DNA from: Acidimicrobiales bacterium
GTDB taxonomy: Bacteria > Actinomycetota > Acidimicrobiia > Acidimicrobiales > CADCSY01
Assembly (NCBI GenBank): GCA_035512495.1
Contig: DATKDW010000026.1
Location: 1 to 56,975, forward strand
Direction: 5' to 3'
Length of the DNA: 56,975 bases
Part shown: piece by piece, positions 9,285-38,756 of the stretch
How the letters are laid out: each line of letters starts with the position of its first letter
How positions within the stretch are numbered: the first letter of the stretch is position 1
Program-made: the position numbers and the translations under genes
The notes under the pieces: model-generated
What the model was told of the DNA's origin: nothing
What the model saw: only the letters and a program-made list of their open reading frames with translations
Database searches by the model: none

Positions 9285-9785
9285 ATGGACGACTACCTGC
9301 CGATCGTCGTCATGTTCGTGCTCGCCGTCGGCTTCGTCGTGCTGAGCCTGGTGACCACCAAGATGGTCGCCTCCTCGCGCCCCACCGACGCCAAGCTGGC
9401 GCCCTACGAGTGCGGCATCGTGCCCAGCCGGGAACCCGCCCGCCGCTTCCCGGTGCGGTTCTACCTGGTGGCGATGATCTTCATCATCTTCGACATCGAG
9501 ATCATCTTCCTGTTCCCGTGGGCCACGGTCTTCCGTGAGCTCGGCGGCTACGGCCTCGGCGTGATGATGCTCTTCATCGTGCCGTTCTTCCTCTCGTTCG
9601 CCTGGGAGATCTCCCAGGGGGGCCTCGACTGGGGCCCACGCAAGCGGATGCGCCGCCTCGACCCCGCTGCCGCGCTCGGCCGCGCCCCCGGCCCCGGCGT
9701 GCGCCGGGTGACCTCGCCCGGCCTCGTCGCCGGCTCCGAGCGGCGTCCCGTCACCGCCCCCGCGCCCGAGGAGGTCCACGCCTGA
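9285..9785 (+). CDS. nuoA: NADH-quinone oxidoreductase subunit A (operon 1)
   Basis: Small membrane subunit of complex I at the junction of arm and membrane domain. Three helices and the family signature are visible: [24 protein letters not shown], written here as its start KLAPYECGI and end RFPVRFY, then [15 protein letters not shown]. At 166 residues it is longer than the usual 120-130, because of a charged 45-residue C-terminal tail absent from the second copy. It begins a 14-gene operon whose genes mostly overlap by 1-8 bases. The start is set by a -10 box 6 nt upstream. nuoB1 follows with a one-base overlap (TGATG). Confidence 0.95.
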
Positions 9786-10375
9786 TGCCGGCACCGAACG
9801 GCCTCGAGGGCATGCAGCACAACTTCCTCACCGGCCCCCTCGAGGACGTCGTCAAGTGGGCGCGCAGCAACAGCGTGTGGCCCGCCACCTTCGGCCTGGC
9901 CTGCTGCGCCATCGAGATGATGGCCACCGGCGCCGCCCACCACGACCTGTCGCGCTTCGGCATGGAGGTCTTCCGGCCCTCGCCCCGCCAGGCCGACCTG
10001 ATGATCGTGGCCGGCCGCGTGAGCCAGAAGATGGCACCGGTGCTCCGGCAGGTCTACGACCAGATGATGGAGCCCAAGTGGGTCCTGTCGATGGGCGTCT
10101 GCGCCTCGACCGGCGGCATGTTCAACAACTACGCGATCGTGCAGGGGGTCGACCAGGTCGTCCCCGTCGACGTCTACGCCCCGGGCTGCCCCCCGAACCC
10201 CCAGACGCTGCTGCACTCGATCCTGACCCTCCACGAGCTCATCCGCACCGGCGAGCTCACCCAGCGCCGCCGGGCCACCGGCGCCGGCGCCGGCATCCAC
10301 GTCGAGGCCCAGGAGGCCGGCGACGTCCCCGTCACCCTCCAGCGCAAGCCCGTCCACCTGGGTACTCCCACATGA
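9785..10375 (+). CDS. nuoB: NADH-quinone oxidoreductase subunit B (operon 1)
   Basis: Holds the terminal iron-sulfur cluster N2, which hands electrons to quinone. The four ligands are present: the tandem pair C40-C41 in [11 protein letters not shown]106 in MGVCAS and C135 in APGCPPNP. The protein is 196 residues; the last 35 or so (after TGELTQRRR) are an extension rich in Ala and Gly. The first 20 residues are likewise beyond the core. nuoC1 starts inside the stop codon (ATGA overlap). Cytoplasmic arm of complex I. Confidence 0.96.
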
Positions 10376-10911
10376 GCGACGGCCAGAGCGACGTGGCGCC
10401 CGACGAGGAGGCGCAGGGAGAGGGCGTGCCCGAACCGGAGACCCGGCACGGCGCGCTCGTCACCCGCACCTTCGGCGACGAGGTCCTCCACGTCGAGCGC
10501 GAGCGCTGGCTCGAGGTGGTGGAGGCGCTGCGCGACGAGGGCTACACCCTCTGCACCGACATCACTGCGGTCGACTACCTGACCCACACCGGGCGCACGC
10601 TGCCGGCCGGCGTCGCACCCGAGCGCTTCGAGGTGGTGGCCAACCTGGTGTCGCTCGAGCAGCGCGCCCGCCTCCGCCTCCGGACCCAGGTCCCCGAGGG
10701 CGACCCCACCGTGGCGTCGCTGTGGGGTGTCCACCCCGGGACCGAGGCGGGGGAGCGCGAGGTCTACGACATGTTCGGCATCGCCTTCGACGGCCACCCC
10801 GACATGACCCGCATCCTCATGCCCGAGGACTGGGAGGGTCACCCGCTGCGCAAGGACTACGCCGTGGGGGAGATCCCCGTGGCCTTCAAGGGCACCCCGG
10901 GGGTGAGATGA
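10372..10911 (+). CDS. nuoC: NADH-quinone oxidoreductase subunit C (operon 1)
   Basis: Structural subunit of the hydrophilic arm, cytoplasmic, with no cofactor. The signature [17 protein letters not shown] followed by [17 protein letters not shown] is present near the C-terminus. At 179 residues it is a compact version. The start ATG at 10372 overlaps the nuoB1 stop; the frame upstream belongs to the shadow of nuoB1. The first 30 residues are acidic and poorly conserved. Confidence 0.94.
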
Positions 10912-12266
10912 GCGACTCCGCACACCACGACCAGCGCGCCGGCGGCGTGGGGGCCGACACCAGCGAGGGCGCTCAGGAGATGATGGCCCGTGGCAGCGTG
11001 GCGGCCACCGAGCTGCTCCGCGAGTCGGGCGCGGTGCTGCGGATGTCGGAGGCCGACGTCGCCGAGCTGACCCAGACGATCGACGACGAGACCATCGGCG
11101 ACGACGAGACGATGATCATCAACATGGGGCCCCAGCACCCCAGCACGCACGGCGTCCTGCGCCTGATGCTCGAGCTCCAGGGCGAGACGGTGCTGCGCAC
11201 CAAGCCCATCATCGGCTACCTCCACACCGGCATGGAGAAGACGGGGGAGTCCCTCACCTACCTCCAGGGCACCACCAACACCACGCGGATGGACTACCTG
11301 TCGCCGCTGTTCAACGAGCTGGTGTTCGCCATGGCCACCGAGAAGCTGCTCGGCCTCGAGCTGCCCCCGCGGGTCACCTGGATCCGCATGCTGATGTGCG
11401 AGCTCAACCGCATGTCGTCGCACCTCCTCTACTTCGCCACCAACGGCATGGACATGGCCTCGACCACGTCGATGATCTTCGGCTTCCGCGAGCGCGAGGA
11501 GATCCTGACGTTCTTCGAGCGCTGCTCCGGCTTGCGGATGAACAACAACTACATCCGCGTGGGCGGGGTGGCCGCCGACCTGCCCGACGGCTGGGAGGAC
11601 GAGGTCACCGCCCTCGTCGACGAGATCGAGTCCCGCCTGCCCGACCACGAGGACCTCTTCCACGGCCAGCCCATCTGGCACGAGCGCAGCCAGGGCGTGG
11701 GCGTCCTCACCCCCGAGGAGGCCCTGGCCATGGGGTGTACCGGGCCGATCCTCCGCGCCACCGGCGTGCCGTGGGACCTTCGCCGCGACACGCCGTACCT
11801 GGCCTATGACCAGGTCGACTTCGACGTCGTCATCGGCACCTACGGCGACGCCCTCGACCGCTTCTCGGTGCGCATGGACGAGATCCGCGAGTCGATGCGC
11901 ATCGTGCGCCAGTGCGTCGAGGCCATGCCGGCGGGCGACCACCGGGTGCAGGACAAGAAGGTCACCCCGCCGCCCCGGGCCCGCATCGACGAGTCGATGG
12001 AGGCCCTGATCCACCACTTCAAGATCTTCACCGAGGGCTTCAAGGTGCCCGAGGGAGAGGTCTACGCCGCGGTCGAGTCCCCTCGTGGCGAGCTCGGCTG
12101 CTACATCGTCTCCGACGGCAGCTCCAAGCCCTACCGCATGCACATCCGGGGGCCGTCGTTCGTGAACCTCCAGGCGCTGCCTCACATGATGCGCGGCGGC
12201 CTCGTGGCCGACGCCGTCGCCATCATCTCCTCCGTCGATCCCGTGATGGGGGAGGTCGATCGCTGA
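10908..12266 (+). CDS. nuoD: NADH-quinone oxidoreductase subunit D (operon 1)
   Basis: Forms the quinone pocket with NuoB and NuoH. The quinone-contacting His81 (in MGPQHPSTHG) and Tyr130 (in TTRMDYL) are both present, as is Arg127 next to cluster N2. The position that is His in Thermus Nqo4 (FHHNYIR) is Asn here (LRMNNNYIR, residues 209-216). Actinobacterial, menaquinone-using enzymes also lack it as far as I recall. At 452 residues it carries an N-terminal extension of about 65 residues compared with the second copy. Starts within the nuoC1 stop (ATGA) and overlaps nuoE by one base. Confidence 0.96.
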   Translation: MSDSAHHDQRAGGVGADTSEGAQEMMARGSVAATELLRESGAVLRMSEADVAELTQTIDDETIGDDETMIINMGPQHPSTHGVLRLMLELQGETVLRTKPIIGYLHTGMEKTGESLTYLQGTTNTTRMDYLSPLFNELVFAMATEKLLGLELPPRVTWIRMLMCELNRMSSHLLYFATNGMDMASTTSMIFGFREREEILTFFERCSGLRMNNNYIRVGGVAADLPDGWEDEVTALVDEIESRLPDHEDLFHGQPIWHERSQGVGVLTPEEALAMGCTGPILRATGVPWDLRRDTPYLAYDQVDFDVVIGTYGDALDRFSVRMDEIRESMRIVRQCVEAMPAGDHRVQDKKVTPPPRARIDESMEALIHHFKIFTEGFKVPEGEVYAAVESPRGELGCYIVSDGSSKPYRMHIRGPSFVNLQALPHMMRGGLVADAVAIISSVDPVMGEVDR

Positions 12267-24775: not shown

Positions 24776-24780
24776 CGGCG

Positions 24781-24786
24781 TAGCGT
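24781..24786 (+). promoter_or_regulatory. -10 box of the methyltransferase gene (leaderless)
   Basis: TAGCGT ends 7 nt before the GTG at 24794, so the mRNA would start at the start codon. The 74-bp repeat ends a few bases upstream, in the -35 region. Confidence 0.55.
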
Positions 24787-24793
24787 CGAGTCC

Positions 24794-25543
24794 GTGGACG
24801 AGGTCAACGAGGCGGCGACGGTGGGGTTCGGGGCGGCGAGCGACGCCTACGAGCGGGGTCGACCCTCGTACCCGCCGGCCGTCATCGGGGTCCTCACCGG
24901 TGACCTCGGCGTCGGCCCCGGGCGCCGGGTGCTCGACCTCGCCGCCGGCACGGGCAAGTTGACCCGCCTCCTGGTGCCGACCGGTGCCGACGTGGTGGCG
25001 GTGGAGCCGGTGGCGGCCATGCGCGAGCAGATGCAGTCGGCGGTGCCCGGCGTGGAGGTGCTCGAGGGCACGGCCGAGGCCATCCCGCTGCCCGATGGGT
25101 CGGTCGACGCCGTCACGGCGGCGCAGGCCTTCCACTGGTTCCGGCCGGGCCAGGCGCTGGCAGAGATCCGGCGGGTCCTCCGCCCGAGCGGGGGGCTTCT
25201 CCTGGTCTGGAACGAGCGCGACGTCTCGGTCCCCTGGGTGGCAGCGGTCTCCGAGGTCATCGACTGGGACGGGCGCCGTCCCTACGAGAAGGGGACCGAC
25301 TGGGCGGAGGTGGTGGCTGACGCCGGCGGATTCACCCCGTTGCAACAGCGACGAATCCGCTTCGAGCACGAGGTCGACGAGGAGACGCTCGTTGATCGGA
25401 TGCTCTCCACGAGCTACGTGGCGGCGGGGAGCGACGAGGAGCGGCGCGAGGTGGAGGCCGGCGTACGTGCTGTCGTGGCCGGCTTCCCCGAGCGCTTCGC
25501 GCTGCCCTACGTGACCGACATCTTCTGGTGCACGAGGGACTGA
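24794..25543 (+). CDS. Class I SAM-dependent methyltransferase, unknown substrate
   Basis: 249 residues of the Methyltransferase-11/UbiE-like fold. N-terminal block FGAASDAYERGRPSYP; SAM motif I VLDLAAGTGKLTRLL; acidic loop end VVAVEPVAAMREQM; motif ...AEAIPLPDGSVDAVTAAQAFHWF; then VLRPSGGLLLVWNERD. The substrate cannot be read from sequence. The start GTG 24794 is set by the -10 box 7 nt upstream. The frame continues upstream through the tandem repeat without protein-like sequence. It is a stand-alone gene between two complex I operons; quinone methylation is conceivable, but nothing here proves it. Confidence 0.85.
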   Translation: MDEVNEAATVGFGAASDAYERGRPSYPPAVIGVLTGDLGVGPGRRVLDLAAGTGKLTRLLVPTGADVVAVEPVAAMREQMQSAVPGVEVLEGTAEAIPLPDGSVDAVTAAQAFHWFRPGQALAEIRRVLRPSGGLLLVWNERDVSVPWVAAVSEVIDWDGRRPYEKGTDWAEVVADAGGFTPLQQRRIRFEHEVDEETLVDRMLSTSYVAAGSDEERREVEAGVRAVVAGFPERFALPYVTDIFWCTRD

Positions 25544-25727: not shown

Positions 25728-26093
25728 GTGTCCGAGTTCCTTCGCGCCTACCTGACGGTGGCGGTGTTCGCAGGTGCAGCCGGCCTGCTCATGGCGCTGT
25801 CCCTCGGCATCGGCCGGGTCCTGCGACCCAACAACCCGAACAAGCAGAAGCTCACCAGCTACGAGAGCGGTGTCGACCCCGTCGGGGCGCCCATCGGGCA
25901 GACACAGGTGCGCTACTACATCTTCGCCCTGCTCTTCGTCATGTTCGACGTGGAGGCGGTCTTCATCTTCCCGTGGGCCATCGGCCTCGAGCGCTACGAC
26001 GTCTACGGCCTCGGCGCCATGGGCCTCTTCATCTTCGTCCTCACCCTGCCGCTGCTCTACGCGTGGCGAAAGGGAGTCCTCCGGTGGGTCTGA
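25728..26093 (+). CDS. nuoA: Complex I subunit A, second (11-subunit) operon
   Basis: Small membrane subunit of three helices, 121 residues, the usual length. Marks: [14 protein letters not shown] (the Cys of the operon-1 copy is Ser here), then [24 protein letters not shown]. It lacks the C-terminal tail of the operon-1 protein, and the two are clearly divergent, so this is not a recent duplication. The GTG start is fixed by the promoter 8 nt upstream. First gene of an operon that reaches 38756. Confidence 0.95.
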
Positions 26094-26124
26094 CCAGCAC
26101 CAACGCGACCGGAGGCCGGGCCTG

Positions 26125-26625
26125 ATGGGCATCGTCGAGCGCGGCAAGCTCCCCAAGCCGCTCACCCACCTGCTCAACATGAGCCGGAAGTACTCGCTGT
26201 GGGTGTACCAGTGGGGCCTCGCCTGCTGCGCCATCGAGATGGGTGCCGCCTTCGGGTCCCCCCGCTACGACGTGATGCGCCTCGGCGTCATCCCCTTTCC
26301 CGCCAGCCCTCGCCAGGCCGACCTCGTCGTCATCTCGGGCACCGTCACCGACAAGATGGCCCCGGCCGTCCGGCGCCTCTACGAGCAGATGCCCGAGCCC
26401 AAGTACGTGATCTCGATGGGCAGCTGCGCCAACGGCGGCGGCCCGTACTGGGACTCCTACTCCGTCACCAAGGGCGTCGACCAGATCATCCCCGTCGACG
26501 TCTACGTCCCGGGCTGCCCACCGCGGCCCGAGGCCCTCCTCGAGGGGATCGTGCTGCTCCAGCAGCGGATCCAGCACGAGGACATGGCCGAGCGCTGGAA
26601 GGGCGATCCCATTGTCGTCGCCTGA
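26125..26625 (+). CDS. nuoB: Complex I subunit B, second operon
   Basis: Carries the terminal cluster N2. Ligands C34-C35 in [11 protein letters not shown]101 in GSCANGG and C131 in VPGCPPRPE are all present. 166 residues, the compact standard size. ATG 26125 has GGAGG 9 nt upstream; the frame is open earlier only as a shadow of nuoA2. The motif [19 protein letters not shown] matches complex I rather than hydrogenase small subunits. nuoC2 overlaps by 14 bases. Confidence 0.95.
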
Positions 26626-27418
26626 CACGCCCCCGGAGGGCGACGAGCAGCGTCCCGACCCCGCGGTCGAGCCCGAGGACGGCGCCGAGCCCGAGGACGG
26701 CGCCGCCGAGCCCGAGGACGGGGCCGCCGAGCCCGAGGCCGCCGCCGAGCCGGAGCCCGACCCGGCTCGGGACCCCATGATCGCAACCCTCGGCGAGCAC
26801 CTCGGCGACGACCTCGTCGCCTCCCACGTGGTCCCCGGCGTCGACGCCTGGGTGCGGGTGCGCCCCGAGGCGTGGCACCGCGCCGGCGAGGTCTGCCGCG
26901 ACGTCCTCGGCCTCACCTACTTCGGCCACCTGTCGGCCATCGACTGGATGCCCTCGCCCTACGGCAAGAGCGAGGACGGCGGCCTCGGCCGCGACGAGGG
27001 CGCGCCCGCAACCACCACCGCCCCGGCCGACCTCGCCCACGGCACCACGGGTGGCGAGACGCGCTTCCAGCTCATCGCCCGCCTCGAGAACCACGCCACC
27101 GGCATCGGCCTGCACCTCAAGGCCGACATCCCCGACGATGCGTTGGCGGTGGCCACGTGGTCGGACCTCTTCGCCGGCGCCGACTGGCACGAGCGCGAGA
27201 CCTGGGAGATGTTCGGCATCGACTTCGTCGACCACCCCCACCTCGTGCACATCTACCTGCCGGGTGAGTTCGAGGGTTACCCCCTCCGCAAGGACTTCCC
27301 GCTCCTCGCCCGTGAGGTGAAGCCGTGGCCGGGCCTGGTCGACGTGGAGCCCATGCCCGGCGAGGAGCCGGCCGAGGACGAGGCCGGAGCCAACGACGAG
27401 GCCGGAGCCGACGTATGA
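26612..27418 (+). CDS. nuoC: Complex I subunit C with acidic repeat N-terminus, second operon
   Basis: Structural arm subunit. The C-terminal half has the family signature [17 protein letters not shown], then [18 protein letters not shown]. Residues 20-50 are an [13 protein letters not shown] repeat that the DNA shows to be a recent tandem expansion. A second Thr/Ala insert lies near 120-145, and the C-terminus is again acidic. Hence 268 residues against 179 for the operon-1 copy. The TTG at 26612 overlaps nuoB2 by 14 bases; ATG 26777 would remove the repeat and is a possible alternative. Confidence 0.88.
26669..26764 (+). repeat. In-frame 18/21-bp coding repeats in nuoC2
   Basis: Units starting GAGCCCGAGGAC (later GAGCCCGAGGCC) begin at 26669, 26687, 26708, 26729, with a last degenerate unit at 26747. 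Spacings of 18 and 21 bp keep the frame and encode EPEDGA(A). Near-identity at DNA level suggests recent slippage and possible strain-to-strain length variation. Confidence 0.8.
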
Positions 27419-27440
27419 CGTCCCGAACAGGAGCCACGCG

Positions 27441-28613
27441 ATGACCGCCGTCAGCGAGCGACAGCAGCGCGCCTACATCGCCGGTCAGGCGGCCGAGGCG
27501 CGGGTCAACGTCGAGATCGAGACCGAGGGCATGACCCTCAACATCGGCCCTCAGCACCCGGCGACCCACGGGACCCTGCGCATCGTGGCCAAGCTCGACG
27601 GCGAGCAGGTCATCTCGGCCGAGCCCGTGCTCGGCTACATGCACCGGGGCTACGAGAAGCTCGTCGAGGTCCGCACCTACCCCCAGGTCACGACCCTCAT
27701 CAACCGCATCGACTGGCTCGGCCACTTCGCCAACGAGGTGCCGTTCATCCTCGCCGCCGAGGCGCTGATGGGCATCGAGGCCCCCGAGCGGGCCCAGTAC
27801 ATCCGGACGATCTTCTTCGAGCTGGCGCGGATGTCGAACATCATGCTGTTCCTCGGCGACATGGGCGTGCAGCTCGGCGCCATCACCGCGGTGTTCTTCG
27901 CCTTCCGCGACCGCGAGCACGTGCTCAACATCATGGAGTCGGTGACCGGCGGCCGGTTCCACCCCAACTTCGACCGCATCGGCGGCCTCAAGGACGACCT
28001 CCCGGCCGGCTGGATCGACGAGTGCCGCGCCGTGATGGAGAAGGTCCGGGGGTTCTGCGACGAGATCGAGACCCTCCTCATGGGCAACGAGATCTTCGAG
28101 ACCCGGACCCGGGGCATCGGCGTCATCCCGCCCGAGATCGCCCTCTCCCATGGCCTGTCGGGGGCCAACGCCCGCGCCTCGGGCATCGACTACGACATCC
28201 GCCGCGACGTGCCGTCGGCCATGGCCTGGAACGAGGTCGACTGGAAGGTCTGGACCCACCCCGACGGCGACAGCTTCGCCCGCTACTGGGTCCGCCTCCA
28301 GGAGACGCGCGAGGCCACCCACATCGTCGACCAGCTGCTCGACAAGCTGCCCGCCGGCCCGATCATGGCCAAGGTGCCCCGCATCATCAAGGTGCCCGAG
28401 GGCGAGGCCTGGGTCTCCACCGAGAACCCGCTCGGTGAGATGGGCTACTACGTCGTGAGCAAGGGCGACCTCGGCCCGTTCCGGGTCAAGATCCGCACGC
28501 CCTCGTTCAACAACATCTCGGTCGTCCCGTGGGTGATGAAGGGCGTCTACGTGCCCGACATCATCACCATCCTCGCCAGCCTCTACTTCATCCTGGGGGA
28601 CATCGACCGGTGA
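27441..28613 (+). CDS. nuoD: Complex I subunit D with Tyr-to-Trp change at the quinone site, second operon
   Basis: Quinone-pocket subunit, 390 residues. The pocket His43 (in GPQHPATHG) is present and Arg89 next to cluster N2 is kept. The Tyr that hydrogen-bonds quinone in other complexes (Tyr87 in Thermus, Tyr108 in cattle) is Trp92 (INRIDWL; codon TGG). His174 in GGRFHPNF aligns with the Thermus His near N2 that operon 1 has lost. No hydrogenase-type CxxC pairs exist at either end, so this is a NuoD and not a [NiFe] large subunit. GGAGCC lies about 10 nt before the ATG. Starts 22 bp after nuoC2. Confidence 0.95.
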   Translation: MTAVSERQQRAYIAGQAAEARVNVEIETEGMTLNIGPQHPATHGTLRIVAKLDGEQVISAEPVLGYMHRGYEKLVEVRTYPQVTTLINRIDWLGHFANEVPFILAAEALMGIEAPERAQYIRTIFFELARMSNIMLFLGDMGVQLGAITAVFFAFRDREHVLNIMESVTGGRFHPNFDRIGGLKDDLPAGWIDECRAVMEKVRGFCDEIETLLMGNEIFETRTRGIGVIPPEIALSHGLSGANARASGIDYDIRRDVPSAMAWNEVDWKVWTHPDGDSFARYWVRLQETREATHIVDQLLDKLPAGPIMAKVPRIIKVPEGEAWVSTENPLGEMGYYVVSKGDLGPFRVKIRTPSFNNISVVPWVMKGVYVPDIITILASLYFILGDIDR

Positions 28614-29653
28614 TCGACCCCGTCCTGGCGATCAGCCTCTCCGACTACTGGGTCCAGACCGCCATCAAGGTGGGGGTCGTCCTCGCCATCATCCCGGCGG
28701 GCGCCCTCATCCTCGGCTACGTCTTCCTGCTGAAGATGATGAGCCACATGCAGAGCCGCGTCGGTCCGATGGAGGCCGGTCCCCACGGCGTGCTGCAGCT
28801 CGTCGCCGACGGCGTGAAGTTCATCCAGAAGGAGGACATCTTCCCGGCTCGGGCCGACCGCTGGGTCTTCGCCATGGCGCCCCTCGTGGTGCTCATGTCG
28901 ACGTTCCTGCTCTACGTCGTCGTCCCCGTCGGGCCCACGCTGGTCGTCGAAGACCTCGACATCGGCATCTTCTTCGCCCTCGGCATCTCGTCGCTGTCGG
29001 TGCTCGGCGTCCTCATGGCCGGCTGGGCCTCGGCCAACAAGTACTCGCTGATGGGTGGCCTCCGTGCCGCCGGCCAGCTCATCGCCTACGAGCTCCCGCT
29101 GATATTTGCGGTCGTCGGCGTCGTCATCCAGGCCGAGACGCTCAGCCTGCAGGGCATCGTCATGGCCCAGGCCGAGGGCGAGATCTTCGGTTGGGGCGGT
29201 ATCGGCAACCCGTTCATCCTCACCCAGTTCGTCGGCTTCGCCCTCTTCCTCGTCGCTGCCCAGGCCGAGCTGACCCAGCCGCCCTTCGACATGCCGGTCG
29301 CCGAGTCCGAGATCGTCGGCGGCTACCAGGTCGAGTACACGGGCTTCCGGTTCCTGCTGTTCTTCATCGGCGAGTTCGGCACCGCCTTCGCCTTCGCCGC
29401 CATCGGAGCCACCCTCTTCCTCGGCGGTTGGTACCTGCCGGGGATGGACGTCACCGGTGGGCTGTTCTCCAACGTGCTCGGCCCCCTGGTGCTCTTCGCC
29501 AAGATCATGCTGGTGGCGTTCATCATCTTCTGGGTGCGCTTCACCTACCCTCGCCTCCGCGAGGACCAGCTGCAGTCGTTCGCCTGGAAGTACCTGATCG
29601 AGCTGTCGCTGCTCAACATCTTCGTCACGGCTGTCTTCAAGGTGGTCTTCTAG
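28610..29653 (+). CDS. nuoH: Complex I subunit H, second operon
   Basis: Quinone-channel membrane subunit, 347 residues, about eight helices. Marks: KMMSHMQSRVGPMEAGPHG, then LQLVADGVKFIQKEDIFP, AELTQPPFDMPVAESE and GGYQVEYTGFRF. GTG 28610 overlaps the nuoD2 stop as GTGA. It lacks the C-terminal tail of the operon-1 protein. In operon order it follows nuoD directly: the place where nuoE, F and G stand in operon 1 is empty, with no remnant. Confidence 0.95.
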   Translation: MIDPVLAISLSDYWVQTAIKVGVVLAIIPAGALILGYVFLLKMMSHMQSRVGPMEAGPHGVLQLVADGVKFIQKEDIFPARADRWVFAMAPLVVLMSTFLLYVVVPVGPTLVVEDLDIGIFFALGISSLSVLGVLMAGWASANKYSLMGGLRAAGQLIAYELPLIFAVVGVVIQAETLSLQGIVMAQAEGEIFGWGGIGNPFILTQFVGFALFLVAAQAELTQPPFDMPVAESEIVGGYQVEYTGFRFLLFFIGEFGTAFAFAAIGATLFLGGWYLPGMDVTGGLFSNVLGPLVLFAKIMLVAFIIFWVRFTYPRLREDQLQSFAWKYLIELSLLNIFVTAVFKVVF

Positions 29654-30142
29654 ATGCCCCAGCTCCCCGGCCTGGTGAAGGGCCTCGGCGTCACCTTCAA
29701 GACGATGCTGAAGCCCGCGGTCACCACGCAGTACCCCCACGAGCGCGAGGCCCCGGCGCCTCGGGCGCGTGGCGTGATCGCCCTGAAGGAGGAGAACTGC
29801 ACCGTCTGCATGCTGTGCTCGCGCAGCTGTCCCGACTGGTGCATCTACATCGAGGGCCACAAGACCAAGGCGCCGCCGCGGCGTGAGGGTGGCAAGACCC
29901 GCACGGTGCAGCACCTCGACCGCTTCGACATCGACTACGGGCTGTGCATGTACTGCGGGATCTGCGTCGAGGTCTGCCCATTCGACGCCCTCTTCTGGAG
30001 CCCCGAATTCGAGTACTCCGAGATGCGCATCGCCGACCTCCTCCACGACAAGACCCGCCTCGGCGAGTGGATGGAGACCGTGCCCGACAACGAGCCCTAC
30101 GAGCAGGGCTCGGAGCAGAAGGTCAAGAAGATCCCCCGATGA
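29654..30142 (+). CDS. nuoI: Complex I subunit I, second operon
   Basis: Two-cluster ferredoxin-like subunit, 162 residues. Ligands C49, C52, C55, C59 and C98, C101, C104, C108 are complete; both motifs are followed by Pro. N-terminus [16 protein letters not shown] is the membrane-surface helix of NuoI. Because NuoEFG are missing, this subunit is the likely entry point for electrons from an external donor such as ferredoxin, as proposed for other 11-subunit complexes. The ATG follows the nuoH2 stop without a gap; overlaps nuoJ2 by ATGA. Confidence 0.95.
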
Positions 30143-30657
30143 TCGCCCAGAACGTCGCCTTCGGCATCCTGGCCGCCGCCGCGGTCCTCGCCGCCCTCCG
30201 GGTGGTCACCACCAAGAACGTGGTGCACGCCGCGCTGTACCTGGTGATGGTGCTGGCCAGCGTCGGTGCGCTGTACATCCTGCTGGTGGCCGAGTTCATC
30301 GCCGCCGTGCAGGTGCTGGTCTACATCGGCGCCATCGTCGTGCTCTTCCTCTTCGGTGTGATGTTGACGCGCGCTCCCCTCGGTGACGAGGGCGGCCTCG
30401 ACAACGACCAGCGGGGCATCGCCGCGATCACCGCCCTGTTCCTCCTCGGTGTGCTGAGCTTCGCCCTGATCGATGCCTTCGGCGACGACCGCCTGCCCGA
30501 CCTCGCCGGCGAGAGCCGGGCGCAGCTCACCGCCGAGCGGGGCACCGACGCCGTTGGCGACATGCTCTTCGCCAACTTCCTCGTGCCCTTCCAGGCCGTC
30601 GGCGTCCTGCTCCTGGCTGCCCTCGTCGGCGCCATCGTCCTGGCTCGTCGGGACTGA
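30139..30657 (+). CDS. nuoJ: Complex I subunit J, second operon
   Basis: Membrane subunit with about five helices, 172 residues. Marks: [20 protein letters not shown] near residue 28 (core [10 protein letters not shown]), then [25 protein letters not shown] 30139 overlaps the nuoI2 stop; the earlier open frame is a shadow of nuoI2. The gap of 12 bp to nuoK2 carries GGAGGATC as ribosome binding site. Confidence 0.94.
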
Positions 30658-30669
30658 TCGGAGGATCTC

Positions 30670-30978
30670 ATGCTTCTCAACCAGTTCCTCCTCCTCGGCG
30701 CCATCTTGTTCTGCATCGGCGTGTACGGCGTGCTCGCCCGTCGCAACGGCGTGCTCGTGCTCATGTCGATCGAGCTGATCCTCAACGCCGTGAACATCAA
30801 CCTCATCGCCTTCGGCTCCATGGCCGGCGGCGACGCCATGCTCGTGGGGCAGGTCTTCGCCCTCTTCGTGGTGGCCGTGGCCGCCGCTGAGGTCGGCGTC
30901 GGCCTGGCGATCATCCTGCTCATCTACCGCAACCGCCGCAGCGTCGACATCGATGACGTCGACCTGATGAAGGGCTGA
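30670..30978 (+). CDS. nuoK: Complex I subunit K, second operon
   Basis: Three-helix MrpC-like proton-channel subunit, 102 residues. The buried acids are in [17 protein letters not shown] and [19 protein letters not shown] lies 6-7 nt before the ATG. Only 2 nt separate it from the GTG of nuoL2. Confidence 0.95.
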
Positions 30979-30980
30979 CC

Positions 30981-33110
30981 GTGCTCGAGAACGCCTGGAT
31001 CATCCCAGCCCTGACCTTCATGTCGTTCTGGCTGATCCTGTTCTTCGGCAAGCGCCTGCCGAAGCACGGGTCGGAGATCGGCGTCGGCGTGCTCGCCGTC
31101 GCGTTCGCGCTCTCCTGCGTCGGTGTCTTCCAGTGGCTCGACCAGCCCGAGGACCACGTCGTCGAGCCCGCCGGGGTCCACGCCACCGACGAGTCCCAAG
31201 CCGGCGACGACCACGCCCTCGCGGCGCCGGTCGTCCTCGCCGGCCTCGACGGGACCGAGGTGACGGCCGCCGAGGACGACGACCACGGCGGGCCCACCAC
31301 CATTCGCGGCGCGGTGGAGCGCAACGTCACCTGGTTCGAGATCGGCGACGTCGAGGTGAAGGTCGGTACCGCCATCGATGGCCTCGCCGTGACCATGCTC
31401 TTCGTGGTGACCCTGATCTCGCTGCTGGTGCACGTGTTCTCCACGAACTACATGCACGGCGACCCCCGCTTCACCTTCTACTTCGCCGGTCTCTCCCTGT
31501 TCACCACCGGGATGCTCCTGCTGGTCGTCTCCAGCAGCATGCTGCAGCTGCTGTTCGGTTGGGAGCTGATGGGCCTGTGCAGCTTCATGCTGATCGGGCA
31601 CTGGTGGGAGGAGAAGGACAACTCCAACGCTGCCCTCAAGGCGTTCCTGACCACGCGCACCGGCGACATCGGGCTGCTGGTCGGCATCTCGATCCTGTTC
31701 TTCGCCGCCGGCCTGACGTTCGACATCGCCAGCATCAACGCCGCCGCCCTCGGCGGTGAGATCGCCGAGACGGCGCTGCTCGTGGCGGCGGTCGCCCTGT
31801 TCGTCGCCGCCATCGGCAAGTCTGCCCAGTTCCCGCTGCACACCTGGCTCCCCGACGCCATGGCCGGACCCACGCCGGTGTCGGCGCTGATCCACGCCGC
31901 CACCATGGTCGTGGCCGGGGTGTACCTCGTGGCCCGCCTCTACGGCGTCTTCTGGCAGGCGTTCGACATCGGCGGCGGCGGGGTCAACCCAATCGCGGTG
32001 ATCGGTGGCATCACCATCCTCATCGCCGCCGCCTTGGCGTTCGTGCAGACCGACATCAAGAAGGTGCTCGCCTACTCCACCGTCAGCCAGCTGGGCTTCA
32101 TGGTGCTGGCCCTCGGCGTCGGCGCCTGGACCGCAGCCATCTTCCACCTCTTCACCCACGCCTTCTTCAAGGGCCTCCTCTTCCTCGGCGCCGGGTCGGT
32201 CAGCCATGCCGTGCACAGCTTCGACATGCGGGAGATGGGTGGTCTCCGCAAGCACATGCCGACCACCTACGTCACCTTCATGATCGGCTCGCTCGCCCTC
32301 GCCGGCCTCCCGCCGCTGGCAGGGTTCTGGTCGAAGGATGAGATCCTGCTCGGCGCCTCGGACAACGGCTACGGCGTCTTCATGATCGTCGGCCTCGTCG
32401 GTGCGTTCATGACGGCGGCCTACATGACTCGTGCGGTCTACCTCACGTTCTTCGGTGAGTTCCGGGGCCACGGCCACCCCCACGAGTCCCCGAAGGTCAT
32501 CACCGTCCCGCTGATCGTCCTGGCGGTGCTCTCGGTCGGTGCCGGGCTCCTCAACGCCCCGCCGCTCGGCATCCAGGCGTTCTTCTACGCCACCCGCAAC
32601 GAGGTGTTCGTCCTCGCCGGGGTCAACCACCCCGAGTTCTCGGTGCCGATCGCCTTCAACTCGATCGTCGTCGCCGTGGTCGGCATCGCCGTCGCCGCCG
32701 TCCTCTACTTCGGGGGCCGTCTCCCGCAGGGCGTCACCGCACGCAACCGGGCGGCTGCCGTCGGCTACCGCTTCCTCGAGAACAAGTACTACCTCGACCA
32801 CCTCTACACCGGCGTCGTCGTCGGCTCCGTCAAGGGCTCGATCGCCCGGGCCGCCAACTGGTTCAACCAGCGGGTGCTCGACGGGATCGTCAACGGCGTC
32901 GCCAACGGCTCCGTCACCTCCGGCCGCTGGATCTACAAGCGGATCGACCAGGGGGTGGTCGACGGCGCCGTCAACGGCGCCGGCATCGGTGCCGGCCGTG
33001 CCGGCGGTGGCCTCCGGGCCATCCAGAACGGCAAGGTGCAGAGCTACGCGGCGCTCCTCTTCGCAGGCGCCGCCGCCTTTGCCTTCGTCCTCGTCCTCTT
33101 CGTCCAGTAG
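30981..33110 (+). CDS. nuoL: Complex I subunit L, second operon
   Basis: Distal antiporter-like subunit. Marks: LLFGWELMGLCSFMLIGHWW, KSAQFPLHTWLPDAMAGPTP, QTDIKKVLAYSTVSQLGFMV and LFTHAFFKGLLFLGAGSVSH. At 709 residues it is longer than the operon-1 copy. An acidic loop of about 65 residues (near 55-115, with repeated Asp/Glu/His) sits between the first two helices, on a non-conserved surface. The C-terminus has repeated VDGAVNGAG-like segments (near 630-680) also seen more weakly in the operon-1 NuoL. The GTG start is adjacent to the nuoK2 stop. Confidence 0.94.
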   Translation: MLENAWIIPALTFMSFWLILFFGKRLPKHGSEIGVGVLAVAFALSCVGVFQWLDQPEDHVVEPAGVHATDESQAGDDHALAAPVVLAGLDGTEVTAAEDDDHGGPTTIRGAVERNVTWFEIGDVEVKVGTAIDGLAVTMLFVVTLISLLVHVFSTNYMHGDPRFTFYFAGLSLFTTGMLLLVVSSSMLQLLFGWELMGLCSFMLIGHWWEEKDNSNAALKAFLTTRTGDIGLLVGISILFFAAGLTFDIASINAAALGGEIAETALLVAAVALFVAAIGKSAQFPLHTWLPDAMAGPTPVSALIHAATMVVAGVYLVARLYGVFWQAFDIGGGGVNPIAVIGGITILIAAALAFVQTDIKKVLAYSTVSQLGFMVLALGVGAWTAAIFHLFTHAFFKGLLFLGAGSVSHAVHSFDMREMGGLRKHMPTTYVTFMIGSLALAGLPPLAGFWSKDEILLGASDNGYGVFMIVGLVGAFMTAAYMTRAVYLTFFGEFRGHGHPHESPKVITVPLIVLAVLSVGAGLLNAPPLGIQAFFYATRNEVFVLAGVNHPEFSVPIAFNSIVVAVVGIAVAAVLYFGGRLPQGVTARNRAAAVGYRFLENKYYLDHLYTGVVVGSVKGSIARAANWFNQRVLDGIVNGVANGSVTSGRWIYKRIDQGVVDGAVNGAGIGAGRAGGGLRAIQNGKVQSYAALLFAGAAAFAFVLVLFVQ

Positions 33111-33149
33111 CGCAGCCCGAGCAAGAACAGCCAGGAGCGATCGACGCCA

Positions 33150-34670
33150 ATGGAGACCTTCGACGACTACGCCCTCTCGCTGGCGGTGTTCCTGCCGCTG
33201 GCAGGGGCCATCGCCATGATGCTCGTGCCGCGGGCCGAGGAGGTGACCCACAAGGTCCTCGCCCTCCTCACCACCGCCGCCACCTTCGGCATCGGCATCT
33301 ACATCCTCGCCCGCTTCGACTACGGGCGTGCCGGTGAGCTGCAGTTCGGCCTCGACAAGCCCTGGATCGAGGTCATCAACAGCCGGTACCTGATCGGCAT
33401 CGACGGGATCTCCCTCCCGTTGCTGGTGCTGTCGATGTTCATCACCCTGCTGGTCGTGCTCTACAGCTGGAACCACTTCCCGACACCGCACAACCCCAAG
33501 GCGTTCCTCATCCTGATCCTCATCCTCGAAGTCGGGATGAACGGCACCTTCGTGGCCCAGGACCTCATCTTGTTCTTCGTCTTCTTCGAGGTCGTGCTGC
33601 TGCCGATGTACTTCATGATCGGCGTGTGGGGTGGCGAGGACCGCCAGTACGCGGCCATCAAGTTCTTCCTCTTCACGCTCTTCGGCTCGGCGCTCATGCT
33701 GCTGGGCTTCTTGGCCCTGTTCTTCCAGGGCGGTGAGACGTTCTCCATCCCCGAGCTCGTCGCTGTGGCATCGGACAACATCGACCGCAACACCCAGCTG
33801 CTGATCTTCGGTGGCCTGTTCATGGGCTTCGCCATCAAGGTGCCCATGTTCCCGTTCCACACGTGGCTCCCCGACGCCCACACCCAGGCACCGACCCAGG
33901 GCTCGGTGATCCTGGCCGCCATCCTGCTGAAGCTCGGCACCTACGGCTTCGTCCGGGTCGCCATCCCGATCCTGCCCGAGGCCGCCATCGAGTGGGCGCC
34001 CTGGATCGGCGGCCTAGCCGTCATTGGCATCATCTACGGCGCCCTCGGCTGCCTCGCCCAGACCGACATGAAGCGCCTGATCGCCTTCTCCTCGGTGGCC
34101 CACATGGGTTACGTGATGCTGGGCATCGCCACCCTCACCGACTTCGGCCTCAACGCGGCGGTGTTCGGCATGGTCGCCCACGGCCTCATCACCGGCATGC
34201 TCTTCTTCGTCGCCGGCTCGGTGAAGGACCGCTTCCACACCCTGGAGCTGTCCCGACTCGGCGGCCTGCTCCTCCAGGCGCCCCGCCTGGGCTGGATCCT
34301 CGGTTTCTGCGCCATGGCGTCGCTCGGGCTCCCCGGGCTCGCCGGGTTCTGGGGCGAGTTCCCCGTCATCCTCGCCGCCTACAGCCCCGCCGAAGGCCTG
34401 TCGGTCGAGCTGTTCCGCGGCTACATGGTCGTGGCCGCCGTCGGCACCGTGCTCGCCGCCGGCTACCTCCTCTGGATGCTGCAGCGAGCGGCGTTCGGCA
34501 CCCCCAAGGAGGAGTTCGAGAAGGTCGACATCCACGATCTCCACTGGAACGAGTACGTGGCCTGGACGCCGATCCTCATCCTGATCGTGGTGCTGGGCGT
34601 CTACCCGACCCTGCTGTTCGGGATCACCGACGCCGCGGTGGGCACGGCCCTGGCCGCGCTGGGGGGCTGA
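33150..34670 (+). CDS. nuoM: Complex I subunit M, second operon
   Basis: Antiporter-like proton-pumping subunit, 506 residues, about 14 helices. Marks: FFEVVLLPMYFMIGVWGGED, then IKVPMFPFHTWLPDAHTQAP and DMKRLIAFSSVAHMGYVML. The 39-bp gap after nuoL2 is the longest inside this operon and contains AGGAG 11 nt before the ATG. The C-terminus is plain, without the acidic tail of the operon-1 copy. Confidence 0.95.
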   Translation: METFDDYALSLAVFLPLAGAIAMMLVPRAEEVTHKVLALLTTAATFGIGIYILARFDYGRAGELQFGLDKPWIEVINSRYLIGIDGISLPLLVLSMFITLLVVLYSWNHFPTPHNPKAFLILILILEVGMNGTFVAQDLILFFVFFEVVLLPMYFMIGVWGGEDRQYAAIKFFLFTLFGSALMLLGFLALFFQGGETFSIPELVAVASDNIDRNTQLLIFGGLFMGFAIKVPMFPFHTWLPDAHTQAPTQGSVILAAILLKLGTYGFVRVAIPILPEAAIEWAPWIGGLAVIGIIYGALGCLAQTDMKRLIAFSSVAHMGYVMLGIATLTDFGLNAAVFGMVAHGLITGMLFFVAGSVKDRFHTLELSRLGGLLLQAPRLGWILGFCAMASLGLPGLAGFWGEFPVILAAYSPAEGLSVELFRGYMVVAAVGTVLAAGYLLWMLQRAAFGTPKEEFEKVDIHDLHWNEYVAWTPILILIVVLGVYPTLLFGITDAAVGTALAALGG

Positions 34671-34673
34671 CCG

Positions 34674-36176
34674 ATGGAGACCGTGCGATCGGCGTTCGAG
34701 ACGCCGGTCATCGACTACCACGCCTTCGCCCCCGAGCTGGTGCTGCTCGGGGTCATCGTGGTGCTGCTGCTGATCGACCTGCTGTTCGAGGAGCGGGTCC
34801 GCTGGGCGACCTCCACCGTCGCCGGCATCGGCCTGATCGCCGCCATGGTCCCCGTGCTCACCCTCGCCGTCGACGGCGCCGACCGCGGCATGTTCAACGG
34901 CGCCTACATGGTCGACAACTTCGCGCTCGTCCTCAAGGCGCTGTTCCTCGTCGCCGCGCTGATCACCACGCTCATCGCCACCGACTACATCGCCGACGGC
35001 GACTACTACGTGGGCGAGTTCTACTTCATGGTGCTGTGCTCGGTGCTGGGCATGATGGTCATGGCCTCGTCGCGCGACCTCATCAGCATCTTCATCGCCC
35101 TCGAGCTCCTCTCGATCCCCGCCTACCTGCTCGCCGGCTGGCGGAAGCGGGACCTCCGGGGCAACGAGGCCTCGCTGAAGTACTACCTCCTCGGCGTGTT
35201 CGCCACGGCGGTGATGCTTTACGGCATGTCGCTGGTGTTCGGCATGACCGGCACCACCATCCTCACCGAGATCGGCGACGCCCTCGCCGCCGGTGAGGGC
35301 TCGGCCCCGATCGTCACCCTCGGCATCGTCTTCGTGATCGTCGGCTTCGCATTCAAGATCTCGGCCGTCCCGTTCCACACCTGGGCGCCCGACACCTACG
35401 AGGGCGCGCCGACCCCGATCACCGCCTTCCTGTCCGTGGCCTCCAAGGCGGCGGGCTTCGTCGCCCTCATGCAGCTGGTCTTCATCGGCTTCCTCGGTCG
35501 TGACGACGTCTGGCAGCCGATGTTCTGGGTCCTGGCGGTGCTGACCATGACGGTCGGCAACCTCATCGCCCTGCGCCAGACAAACATCATCCGCCTGCTC
35601 GCCTACTCGTCGGTGGCCCAGGCCGGGTTCATGCTCGTACCCTTCGCCGTCGCCGGCGAGCTCGACGCCGGCCCAGCCGGCGCCATCAGCGCCGTGGTCA
35701 CCTACCTGCTGATCTACACGGCGATGAACCTCGGTGCCTTCGCCGTGGTGATGACCGTGGCCCGCAAGACGCGCTCGGGCGAGATCGAGTCGTTCGGTGG
35801 GCTGTTCACCTACGCCCCCGGCCTCACCGTGGTGATGACGATCTTCCTGTTCGCCCTCGCCGGCATCCCTCCGCTCGCCGGCTGGTACGCCAAGTTCGTG
35901 GTCTTCCGGGTGCTCTTCGACGCCTTGACGCCCGCCGCGGTGGTGCTCGGCGTGATCGTGGGCGTCAACTCCGTGATCGCGCTCTTCTACTACGCCAACG
36001 TGGCCCGCCAGATGTGGATGGCCCCGGTGCCCGACGGCGACACCATGCCCGTCAAGGTCACGCCGTCGCTCACCGCAGCCCTCGGGCTGTGCGTGGTCGC
36101 CACGGTGATCATCGGCATCGTCCCCGGCGTGATCGCCCGCTTCGGCGATCTCGCCCTCTTCGCCGCCCTGCCCTGA
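34674..36176 (+). CDS. nuoN: Complex I subunit N, second operon
   Basis: Third antiporter-like subunit, 500 residues, about 14 helices. Marks: FIALELLSIPAYLLAGWRKR, then KISAVPFHTWAPDTYEGAPT and RQTNIIRLLAYSSVAQAGFML. Starts 3 nt after the nuoM2 stop. With it the operon encodes exactly the 11 core subunits ABCDHIJKLMN. The next gene starts 4 nt downstream, so the methyltransferase is part of the same transcript. Confidence 0.95.
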   Translation: METVRSAFETPVIDYHAFAPELVLLGVIVVLLLIDLLFEERVRWATSTVAGIGLIAAMVPVLTLAVDGADRGMFNGAYMVDNFALVLKALFLVAALITTLIATDYIADGDYYVGEFYFMVLCSVLGMMVMASSRDLISIFIALELLSIPAYLLAGWRKRDLRGNEASLKYYLLGVFATAVMLYGMSLVFGMTGTTILTEIGDALAAGEGSAPIVTLGIVFVIVGFAFKISAVPFHTWAPDTYEGAPTPITAFLSVASKAAGFVALMQLVFIGFLGRDDVWQPMFWVLAVLTMTVGNLIALRQTNIIRLLAYSSVAQAGFMLVPFAVAGELDAGPAGAISAVVTYLLIYTAMNLGAFAVVMTVARKTRSGEIESFGGLFTYAPGLTVVMTIFLFALAGIPPLAGWYAKFVVFRVLFDALTPAAVVLGVIVGVNSVIALFYYANVARQMWMAPVPDGDTMPVKVTPSLTAALGLCVVATVIIGIVPGVIARFGDLALFAALP

Positions 36177-36180: not shown

Positions 36181-37314
36181 GTGAGCGCGCTCGAGGAGGT
36201 CCTCGCCCTCGTCGAGCGGGAGGGGCCGATCACCTTCGACCGCTACATGGACGTCGCCCTCTACGGCGTCTCGGGCTTCTTCGCCACCGGCGGGGGGGCG
36301 GGCCGGCGGGCCGACTTCATCACCAGCCCCGAGGTCGGCCCCCTCTTCGGCGCGGTGGTGGCCCGGGCGTTCGACGCCGAGTGGGAGCGCCTGAGCCGTC
36401 CCGATCCGTTCGTGGTGGTGGAGGTGGGTGCCGGACGGGGGGCCCTGGCCAGGTCGGTGCTCGATGCCCGGCCCAACTGCGCGCCGGCGCTGCGCTACCT
36501 CTGCGTCGAGCGGTCCCCGGTGCTGCGCGACGCTGTCGCCGAGCTGGTGCCGCTGGAGCCGCCGGCCAACGTGTTGGCCGTCGGGCCGTCGGACGACGAA
36601 GCCGACGGACCGGTCGAGCCGGGTGCTGGCCCGCTCGTCGCCGTGCTCGACGACCTGCCGGCGGTGTCGCTCACCGGGGTGGTGCTCGCCAACGAGCTGC
36701 TCGACAACCTCCCGGTCGCCCTCCTCGAGCGGACCGAGGACGGGTGGGCCGAGGTGCGGGTGGGTGCCGACCACCGGGGCGAGCTGGTCGAGGTCCTGGT
36801 CGGGGCCTCATCTCAGTCGGGCGCCCTGGCCGGCGAGCTGGCACCCGCCGCTCCACCGGGCGCGCGGATCCCGCTCCAGCGGGCGGCGACCGCCTGGCTG
36901 CGACAGGTGCTGAGCTCGCTCGACCGAGGTCGGCTGATCGCCCTCGACTACGCCGACACCACGGCGTCGATGGCCACCCGCCCGTGCGACGAGTGGCTGC
37001 GCACCTACCGGGCTCACGCCCGCGGCGGCCCGCCACTGGCCCGGCCCGGGAGCCAGGACATCACCTGTGAGGTGGCCGTCGATCAGCTGGTCCGGGCCCA
37101 CCGCCCCCGATCCGAGGCCAGCCAGGCCGACTGGCTCCGCGCCCACGGCATCGACGACCTGGTCGCCGCGGCCCGGGCCACGTGGCACGAGCGGGCGGCC
37201 ATCGGCGACCTCGCCGCCCTCCGGGCCCGGAGCGCGGTGGGGGAGGCCGAAGCCCTCACCGACCCGGCGGGGCTGGGCGCCTTCCGCGTCCTCGAGTGGC
37301 AGGTGGGCCAGTGA
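36181..37314 (+). CDS. MidA/NDUFAF7-family SAM-dependent methyltransferase
   Basis: 377 residues. In eukaryotes this family (NDUFAF7/MidA) dimethylates an Arg of the NuoD homologue NDUFS2 and is needed for complex I assembly. Marks: ITFDRYMDVALYG near the N-terminus, DFITSPEVGPLFGAVVA (family signature), VVVEVGAGRGALARSVL (SAM glycine loop) and VVLANELLDNLPVALLE. The family DYGH motif is DYAD here. The GTG start lies 4 nt after nuoN2, so it is co-transcribed with the 11-subunit complex, which fits a dedicated NuoD2 methylase or assembly factor. NuoD2 keeps the candidate target Arg89. Family firm, target inferred. Confidence 0.87.
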   Translation: MSALEEVLALVEREGPITFDRYMDVALYGVSGFFATGGGAGRRADFITSPEVGPLFGAVVARAFDAEWERLSRPDPFVVVEVGAGRGALARSVLDARPNCAPALRYLCVERSPVLRDAVAELVPLEPPANVLAVGPSDDEADGPVEPGAGPLVAVLDDLPAVSLTGVVLANELLDNLPVALLERTEDGWAEVRVGADHRGELVEVLVGASSQSGALAGELAPAAPPGARIPLQRAATAWLRQVLSSLDRGRLIALDYADTTASMATRPCDEWLRTYRAHARGGPPLARPGSQDITCEVAVDQLVRAHRPRSEASQADWLRAHGIDDLVAAARATWHERAAIGDLAALRARSAVGEAEALTDPAGLGAFRVLEWQVGQ

Positions 37315-38756
37315 GGAGCTGGACCGCCGGGCTGCTCGTCTTCTGCACCTCTGCCGCGGTGCTGGTGCTGGAGATCATCGCCGGCCGGCTGGTGGCGCCC
37401 CATCTCGGCGTCTCGCTCGAGACCTACACCGGGATCATCGGCACGGTGCTGGCCGGCATCGCCCTCGGGAGCGCCGTGGGGGGCCGCCTCGCCGACCGGT
37501 ACGACGCCCGACGCCTGCTCGGGCCGACCCTCGTCCTCGGTGGGCTGCTGGCGCTCACGTCCCTGCCGGTCGTGACCGCCGTCGGGCCGACCGTCGCCGG
37601 GGGCGGGCCCGGGGCGATCGTGCTGCTCACCGTGCTGGCCTTCTTCGCCCCTGCCGCGGTGCTGTCGGGGGTGAGCCCCATGGCGGCGAAGCTGCGGCTG
37701 GAGAGCCTGGTGGAGACCGGCTCGGTGGTGGGTGGGCTGTCGGCGGCGGGCACGGCGGGCGCGCTCGTGGGCACCTTCCTGACGGGCTTCGTGCTGGTGG
37801 GCGCCCTGCCCTCGCGCGCGATCGTGGTCGCACTGGGCCTGGGCCTCCTGGTTGCCGGCTTCGTCCTCTGGTTGGTCATGGCCCCGGCACGGCGGGTGGT
37901 GATGGCCGGCGCGGCCGTCGTCGCCGTGCTGGTCGCAGGGGTGTCCACCAGCGCCGCCGGCCCGTGTCACCACGAGACGGCGTACTTCTGCGCCCGGGTC
38001 GAGCTCGACCCCGGCCGGCCCTCGGGCCGGGTGCTGGTGCTCGACGACCTCCGTCACAGCTACGTCGACCTCGACGACCCGACGCACCTCGAGTTCCGCT
38101 ACATCCGGCTCTTCGCCGACGTGATCGACGCCACGACCGCCGGCCCGATCGAGGTGCTGCACGTGGGCGGCGGTGGCTTCACCATGCCCCGCTGGCTGGC
38201 CGCCACCCGGCCGGGCAGCGCCAGCACCGTGCTCGAGCTCGACGCCGACCTCGTCGACATCGTGCGAGACGAGCTCGGCCTCGTCACCGGGCCGGACCTC
38301 CGGGTGGTCACCGGCGATGCCCGCACCGCCCTCGACGACCTGCCCGCCGACCGGTTCGACGTGGTGGTCGGCGACGCCTTCGGTGGCGTCTCCGTGCCCT
38401 GGCACCTCACGACCGTCGAGGTGGTGCGGCTCCTCGACCGGGTGCTCCGCCCCGATGGGGTGTACGTGCTCAACGTCATCGACGGTGGACCCCGCCGCTT
38501 CCTCCGAGCCGAGGTGGCCACGCTGCAGGCCGTGTTCGACCACGTGGCCGTGATCGAGCCACCGGGCCAGGACGGGTCGGCGCCCCAGAACCACGTGCTG
38601 GTGGCGTCGCACGCCCCTCTGACGCTGGCCCAGGGGGACCTCGACGTCGCCGAGGGCCTCCTGGCCGACGGCGCCGACCTCGACGTCCTGGTGGGCGGCG
38701 CCAGGGTCCTGACCGACGGCTTCGCCCCCGTCGATCAGCTCATCTCACGCCGCTGA
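37311..38756 (+). CDS. Fused membrane / spermidine-synthase-like protein
   Basis: 481 residues. The first 215 or so form about seven helices (MFS-like; ...GTVLAGIALGSAVGGRLADR shows the typical loop, core LGSAVGGRLADRYDARRL). The second half is a spermidine-synthase-like Rossmann domain with VLHVGGGGFTMPRWLAA (SAM-type binding loop), TVLELDADLVDIVRDELG and VVVGDAFGGVSVPWHL. This membrane fusion is widespread in actinobacteria; real polyamine synthesis is not established for it. GTG 37311 overlaps the preceding stop as GTGA, so it is the last gene of the operon. Whether it acts on complex I or is a passenger is unknown. Confidence 0.82.
   Translation: MRSWTAGLLVFCTSAAVLVLEIIAGRLVAPHLGVSLETYTGIIGTVLAGIALGSAVGGRLADRYDARRLLGPTLVLGGLLALTSLPVVTAVGPTVAGGGPGAIVLLTVLAFFAPAAVLSGVSPMAAKLRLESLVETGSVVGGLSAAGTAGALVGTFLTGFVLVGALPSRAIVVALGLGLLVAGFVLWLVMAPARRVVMAGAAVVAVLVAGVSTSAAGPCHHETAYFCARVELDPGRPSGRVLVLDDLRHSYVDLDDPTHLEFRYIRLFADVIDATTAGPIEVLHVGGGGFTMPRWLAATRPGSASTVLELDADLVDIVRDELGLVTGPDLRVVTGDARTALDDLPADRFDVVVGDAFGGVSVPWHLTTVEVVRLLDRVLRPDGVYVLNVIDGGPRRFLRAEVATLQAVFDHVAVIEPPGQDGSAPQNHVLVASHAPLTLAQGDLDVAEGLLADGADLDVLVGGARVLTDGFAPVDQLISRR

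Follow-up and report, generated by a model that had tools for sequence, protein, structure and literature searches.

The window, i.e. the whole 56,975-nucleotide stretch of DNA analysed here, belongs to the 2.8-Mb draft genome of a member of the Acidimicrobiales and carries two complex I operons in tandem (Table 1). A 14-subunit-type operon, whose nuoN stops at 24602, lies upstream of an 11-subunit operon (25728-36176) with the order nuoA-B-C-D-H-I-J-K-L-M-N, from which nuoEFG are absent. Complex I-like enzymes of this type, encoded by nuoABCDHIJKLMN without the NADH module, are known from Desulfitobacterium, from haloarchaea and as the cyanobacterial NDH-1. Between the two operons lie a Methyltransf_11/UbiE-like methyltransferase gene (24644-25543, start codon uncertain) and, between it and the 14-subunit operon, a 74-nt tandem duplication that is 91% identical (24623-24770).

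A methyltransferase gene closes the 11-subunit operon

The midA gene has a GTG start and encodes 377 amino acids. It is separated from nuoN2 by a gap of 4 nt, in which no promoter- or terminator-like site was found. Its stop is overlapped by 4 nt by the start of a fused MFS/spermidine-synthase-like gene (GTGA at 37311), which is also found 3' of midA in several family relatives and probably has no part in what the methylase does. Outside the window, at a contig edge of the same draft genome (G000:C24:364-390), a second partial nuoD2-like copy with HRGYEK codons was seen, perhaps reflecting strain mixture or contamination.

Table 1 Features of the two nuo operons and of the midA locus
Feature	Position	Strand	Basis
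nuoB1; Arg78 (codon 10016-10018) at intersubunit-switch position	9785..10375	+	PF01058
nuoD1 (14-subunit operon); Thr107 (codon 11226-11228) at Arg85 position, Tyr130 at quinone position	10908..12266	+	PF00346 3.5e-117
nuoA2, first gene of 11-subunit operon	25728..26093	+	PF00507 2.1e-32
nuoB2; Thr70 (codon 26341-26343) at intersubunit-switch position	26134..26625	+	PF01058
nuoC2	26612..27418	+	PF00329 8.9e-26
nuoD2, 49-kDa subunit of 11-subunit complex, predicted substrate	27441..28613	+	PF00346 1.1e-77; NuoD models; Nqo4 alignment
NuoD2 Arg69 codon (HRGYE motif), bovine Arg85 equivalent, predicted methylation site	27645..27647	+	Alignment to Nqo4 Thr64 with PMC3829151/PMC3750175; invariant 41/41
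NuoD2 Trp92 codon, at quinone-ligating Tyr position	27714..27716	+	Nqo4 alignment; invariant 41/41 in Acidimicrobiia
nuoH2 (start inferred: 4-nt overlap with nuoD2)	28610..29653	+	ORF; conserved order
nuoI2	29654..30142	+	Fer4/NuoI models
nuoJ2 (start inferred)	30139..30657	+	ORF; conserved order
nuoK2	30670..30978	+	ORF; conserved order
nuoL2	30981..33110	+	ORF; conserved order
nuoM2	33150..34670	+	ORF; conserved order
nuoN2, 4 nt 5' of midA	34674..36176	+	TIGR01770 2.3e-118, above cut-off
midA, MidA/NDUFAF7 family (COG1565, PF02636), SAM-dependent methyltransferase, predicted NuoD2 arginine methylase	36181..37314	+	PF02636 7.7e-37; PDB sequence matches; fold match
Fused MFS/spermidine-synthase-like gene, 3' neighbour of midA	37311..38756	+	NF037959 above cut-off for longer ORF

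PF02636 covers residues 60-308 of the midA product (127.5 bits against a cut-off of 23.3), and a profile search of the source genome returned this single match. PDB sequence matches were to 1zkd, 4f3n and Dictyostelium MidA 5ztz, which are COG1565/MidA proteins. An AlphaFold2 model built from 22 relatives (pLDDT 93.2) matched 4f3n, 4g67, 5zu0, 5ztz and 1zkd with Z-scores of 33-35 over 326-343 residues, i.e. nearly full length, while the next-best fold family reached 14.6; the modelled fold is that of the family and not of a generic class I methyltransferase. The earlier note, written from the sequence of this DNA, had read the gene as a MidA/NDUFAF7-type methylase starting 4 nt past the nuoN of an 11-subunit operon, and both statements hold.

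The SAM-binding glycine motif (E-x-G-x-G-x-G) reads VEVGAGRGAL, with Gly85 and Gly87 invariant among the 22 aligned relatives, in which the ANELLDN stretch and Asp256 are also invariant or nearly so. At residues 256-259, the DYGH position, the protein reads DYAD, as previously noted. The change, from which a hint of divergence had been drawn, is a clade-wide variant, common to much of the class, in which the Asp is invariant, the Tyr mostly kept and the third position variable; it does not point to gene decay. DYGH is the sequence of 1zkd, 4f3n itself reads DYGF, and we found no source making DYGH a defining feature of the family. Two loci depart further, L008 with Phe in place of Tyr257 and L015 without a DY motif. 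The protein is about 21% identical to Dictyostelium MidA, and this low value together with DYAD could mean that substrate specificity has shifted.

Reciprocal arginines beside cluster N2

Residues 24-69 of NuoD2 align without gaps to residues 19-64 of Thermus Nqo4, the best solved match, in which the counterpart of bovine and human Arg85 is Thr64 (PMC3829151). The methylated bovine peptide is KCDPHIGLLHRGTEK, Arg85 lying within HIGLLHRGTEK (PMC3750175), and the motif in NuoD2 is GYMHRGYEK. The equivalent of the mammalian target is therefore NuoD2 Arg69, which is invariant in 41 of 41 NuoD2 relatives. The earlier note had assigned this role to Arg89, which the Nqo4 alignment and the literature rule out: Arg89, also invariant, is the other conserved arginine of the N2 sphere and corresponds, by its +20 spacing, to Yarrowia R141 (PMC8042128). 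Trp92, which had been placed three residues from the target, is real but lies 23 residues away, where it aligns with the quinone-ligating Tyr (Nqo4 Tyr87, Yarrowia Y144; PMC8042128); it is invariant in the 41 Acidimicrobiia NuoD2 sequences. Trp also occupies the quinone position in almost all Arg-type second NuoD proteins read from other actinobacterial families, including those of large Streptomyces-like genomes, and Tyr is kept there in the Arg-type NuoD of four genomes (G087, G235, G100 and G241). A full-text literature search, with most subscription papers outside its reach, found no earlier report of Trp at this position.

The 14-subunit complex shows the opposite arrangement. NuoD1 reads GYLHTGMEK, with Thr107 at the Arg85 site and the quinone Tyr kept, and the neighbouring subunits differ in turn, NuoB1 reading AGRVSQKM (Arg78) and NuoB2 SGTVTDKM (Thr70). 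This is the intersubunit switch described for other species, in which an NDUFS2 Thr (Thermus) goes with Nqo6 Arg83 in the same space and an NDUFS2 Arg goes with NDUFS7 Thr122 (PMC8042128). One genome holds both states, NuoD1-Thr/NuoB1-Arg and NuoD2-Arg/NuoB2-Thr. Across Acidimicrobiia, the Arg85 site of NuoD1 is Thr in 51 of 52 readable copies and Ser in the other, and the switch position is Arg in all 20 NuoB1 and Thr in all 22 NuoB2 copies; reciprocity is strict in every copy read, bar the one Ser. NuoD1 having Thr at the Arg85 site, NuoD2 is therefore the only possible NuoD substrate. Judged by these sequences, each complex has one arginine at the N2 place, and only the 11-subunit complex has it in NuoD, where MidA could methylate it.

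Distribution of midA and of Arg-type NuoD

PF02636 is present in 42 of 59 relatives from the order, and the 11-subunit NuoD occurs in essentially the same genomes. nuoN lies directly 5' of midA in all 29 order loci examined (a partial nuoN2 in L018 and nuoN1 in L025, midA lying between nuoN1 and nuoA2 in both L025 and L164), and two genomes checked individually, G003 and G010, have the nuoN2-midA pair. Among 80 Acidimicrobiia loci collected by midA similarity alone, nuoN2 precedes midA on the same strand in 77, with the 11-subunit gene order conserved; in the other three (L059, L082 and L086) midA is present and nuoN2 was not detected upstream. Throughout Acidimicrobiia, the 11-subunit operon ends with midA. 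The proposed survey of midA beside nuo operons thus extends the association far past the source genome, and the converse, that it is confined to this genome, is ruled out by linkage and co-occurrence.

In a sample of 198 Acidimicrobiia genomes, with NuoD scored as HRGY, midA was found in 162 and HRGY NuoD in 162 (both in 151, neither in 25, discordant in 22). Among genomes at least 95% complete, 89 have both midA and NuoD2-Arg, 19 have neither and one is discordant; in the latter (G201) the contig with nuoD2 is cut in nuoH2, and another apparent exception, G047, whose contig ends inside nuoM2, is likewise a cut contig. Most members of genus g236, with streamlined genomes of about 1 Mb, keep both midA and HRGY NuoD. 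On the NuoD1 tree, joint absence of midA and NuoD2 requires 2 changes (2-3 across bootstraps), and genome counts are therefore not independent.

Genome-wide surveys were confined to Actinomycetota. Among 246 genomes of the phylum, midA was found in 76 and Arg-type NuoD, by a strict DNA pattern, in 85, with an overlap of 54. The strict HRG pattern missed HRA and HRS NuoD, and 27 genomes were re-checked by protein, a re-check that covered Thr-only genomes without midA only in part. For the 22 genomes that have midA but had escaped the pattern, it gave Arg-type NuoD (HRA, HRS or HRG) in 18, Thr-only NuoD in 2 (G148 and G263) and none in 2, which are incomplete genomes. Arg-type NuoD is present in 72 of the 76 midA-positive genomes, i.e. 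midA is almost always accompanied by it in Actinomycetota. Outside the class, midA lies at most 10 kb from an Arg-type nuoD in 16 of 39 pattern-positive genomes, in arrangements that vary between families: midA converges on a neighbouring nuoD, immediately precedes nuoD or lies between the two operons (L164). A plasmid search returned alphaproteobacterial midA only.

These data bear on the possibility that midA sits in the operon because an old gene order was inherited vertically, has a substrate unrelated to complex I and was lost with the operon as a block. The small number of joint losses fits such an account, as a linked midA would go with its operon, and so does the position of alphaproteobacterial midA, which is flanked by lgt and pgeF and lies apart from nuo. 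However, other actinobacterial families link midA to Arg-type nuoD in differing arrangements, genomes with an unlinked midA still nearly always have Arg-type NuoD, and NDUFS2 is an in vivo substrate of NDUFAF7 (PMC3829151). We consider shared inheritance an unlikely explanation.

The reverse association is looser. midA was found in 1 of 19 genomes with HRGF-type NuoD, two HRAF genomes (G083 and G093) are without it, and it is absent from 10 genomes matching HRGI, HRGL or HRGG patterns. Some of these pattern matches may be to hydrogenase subunits or may have arisen by chance. E. coli NuoD keeps the arginine in unmodified form (PMC3750175), and PF02636 was absent from E. coli, used as a control. 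The midA-less HRGF and HRAF genomes and the unmodified E. coli residue together mean that the arginine does not demand MidA, which the Arg-in-NuoD design can include but does not require. The residue that follows HR[G/A] (Phe versus Tyr, Ala or His) tracks midA presence, which may be phylogeny. Several Actinomycetota, including loci L146-L149 (G082, G227, G218 and G068), have an 11-subunit operon and an HRGF NuoD with Trp but lack PF02636; downstream of nuoN, L148 and L149 have an M48 peptidase gene. In the HRGF group, the ORFs tested 3' of nuoN2 included no recognisable methylase candidate.

Proposed function and relation to known systems

The reading we favour, and regard as probable, is that midA encodes an active MidA/NDUFAF7-type arginine N-methyltransferase that methylates NuoD2 Arg69 and serves the 11-subunit complex alone. 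What is observed is that midA is a family member, present in single copy at the end of the operon, that Arg69/Thr70 and Thr107/Arg78 are reciprocal and that midA and NuoD2-Arg co-occur. MidA would be translated from the nuo2 operon together with its substrate and, by analogy with NDUFAF7 biochemistry, would methylate Arg69, most likely to symmetric omega-N,N'-dimethylarginine, before or during docking of NuoD2 on NuoB2, the modified residue then stabilising the NuoD2-NuoB2 interface beside cluster N2. MidA would serve this complex only because NuoD1 has Thr and the arginine of the 14-subunit complex is in NuoB1. The predicted product and role in assembly follow human NDUFAF7, which symmetrically dimethylates NDUFS2 Arg85 early in assembly (PMC3829151), a modification needed for complex I assembly, and Yarrowia, where the dimethylated Arg121 is needed for N2 and for the NDUFS2-NDUFS7 contact; the role of the methyl groups has not yet been separated from that of the arginine itself (PMC8042128). 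The dedication to the 11-subunit complex claimed in the earlier note is thus upheld by the terminal operon position, co-occurrence with NuoD2-Arg and a NuoD1 without methylatable arginine.

MidA might instead modify another residue or subunit of the complex (Arg89 or a different NuoD2 arginine, or NuoB2), or monomethylate Arg69. DYAD and the low identity to eukaryotic MidA allow for a changed specificity, and Arg89 is as invariant as Arg69. But Arg89 has a counterpart in NuoD1 (TRMDY), a subunit found in midA-less genomes, so that Arg69 tracks midA and Arg89 does not, and HRG is the sequence modified in the characterised cases (PMC3750175); we hold this alternative to be quite improbable. That MidA is an inactive, chaperone-like relative binding NuoD2 during assembly is very improbable, since the variation at the DYGH site, even in L008 and L015, is set against SAM-motif glycines, ANELLDN and Asp256 kept across the class and a gene retained in most of the 1-Mb genomes of one genus.

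If MidA does methylate Arg69, one cell would hold two complexes I with opposite N2-arginine solutions, the NuoB arginine of the NADH-type enzyme being unmethylated and the NuoD arginine of the 11-subunit enzyme methylated. Tentatively, methyl-Arg and Trp together would mark out a quinone site of its own kind, in a subfamily of actinobacterial complexes I that uses a different electron donor or acceptor. The arrangement, which is repeated throughout a bacterial class, provides a natural paired comparison in one cytoplasm, a methylatable arginine with its methylase versus an arginine in the neighbouring subunit without methylase substrate, and hence a clean test of the purpose of the modification; the midA-less HRGF group adds a comparison without methylase. 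It also predicts from sequence alone which bacteria should have methylated NuoD.

Methylation of a bacterial NuoD, whose novelty had been implied, is already published: in Paracoccus denitrificans, the equivalent Arg65 of Nqo4 is symmetrically dimethylated (PMC3750175), and a role for the NDUFAF7 homologues of alphaproteobacteria in NuoD methylation has been proposed (PMC9006661). A midA/NuoD methylation system older than mitochondria is plausible, and with the present locus the system reaches past the "proteobacterial origin" that the MidA structure paper names in its title. A full-text search, most subscription papers being beyond its reach, found no earlier account of midA within a nuo operon, of an 11-subunit operon with a methyltransferase, of the two-complex arginine split or of a MidA phylogeny. 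What appears to be new is the operon-level dedication of a methylase to one of two coexisting complexes.

Compared with NDUFAF7/MidA of human and Dictyostelium, the protein described here shares the PF02636/COG1565 family, the full-length fold (Z 33.9 to 5zu0) and an HRGXE arginine in its partner NuoD; it differs in sequence, in DYAD for DYGH, in lying in the operon of its predicted client and in a client complex without NuoEFG, and its methylation activity is predicted. Paracoccus Nqo4, from another phylum, resembles NuoD2 as a bacterial NuoD with the equivalent arginine, while midA of the alphaproteobacterium Sinorhizobium lies in lgt-midA-pgeF and that of Acidimicrobiia in a nuo operon. The Thermus arrangement, Nqo4 Thr64 with Nqo6 Arg83, is that of the window's 14-subunit complex; here, however, the two arrangements occur side by side in a single genome, and it is the opposite one that the methylase accompanies. 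Finally, the enzyme described here stands apart from other 11-subunit enzymes in that its operon lies in tandem with that of a 14-subunit complex and includes midA, and in that Trp replaces the quinone-ligating Tyr.
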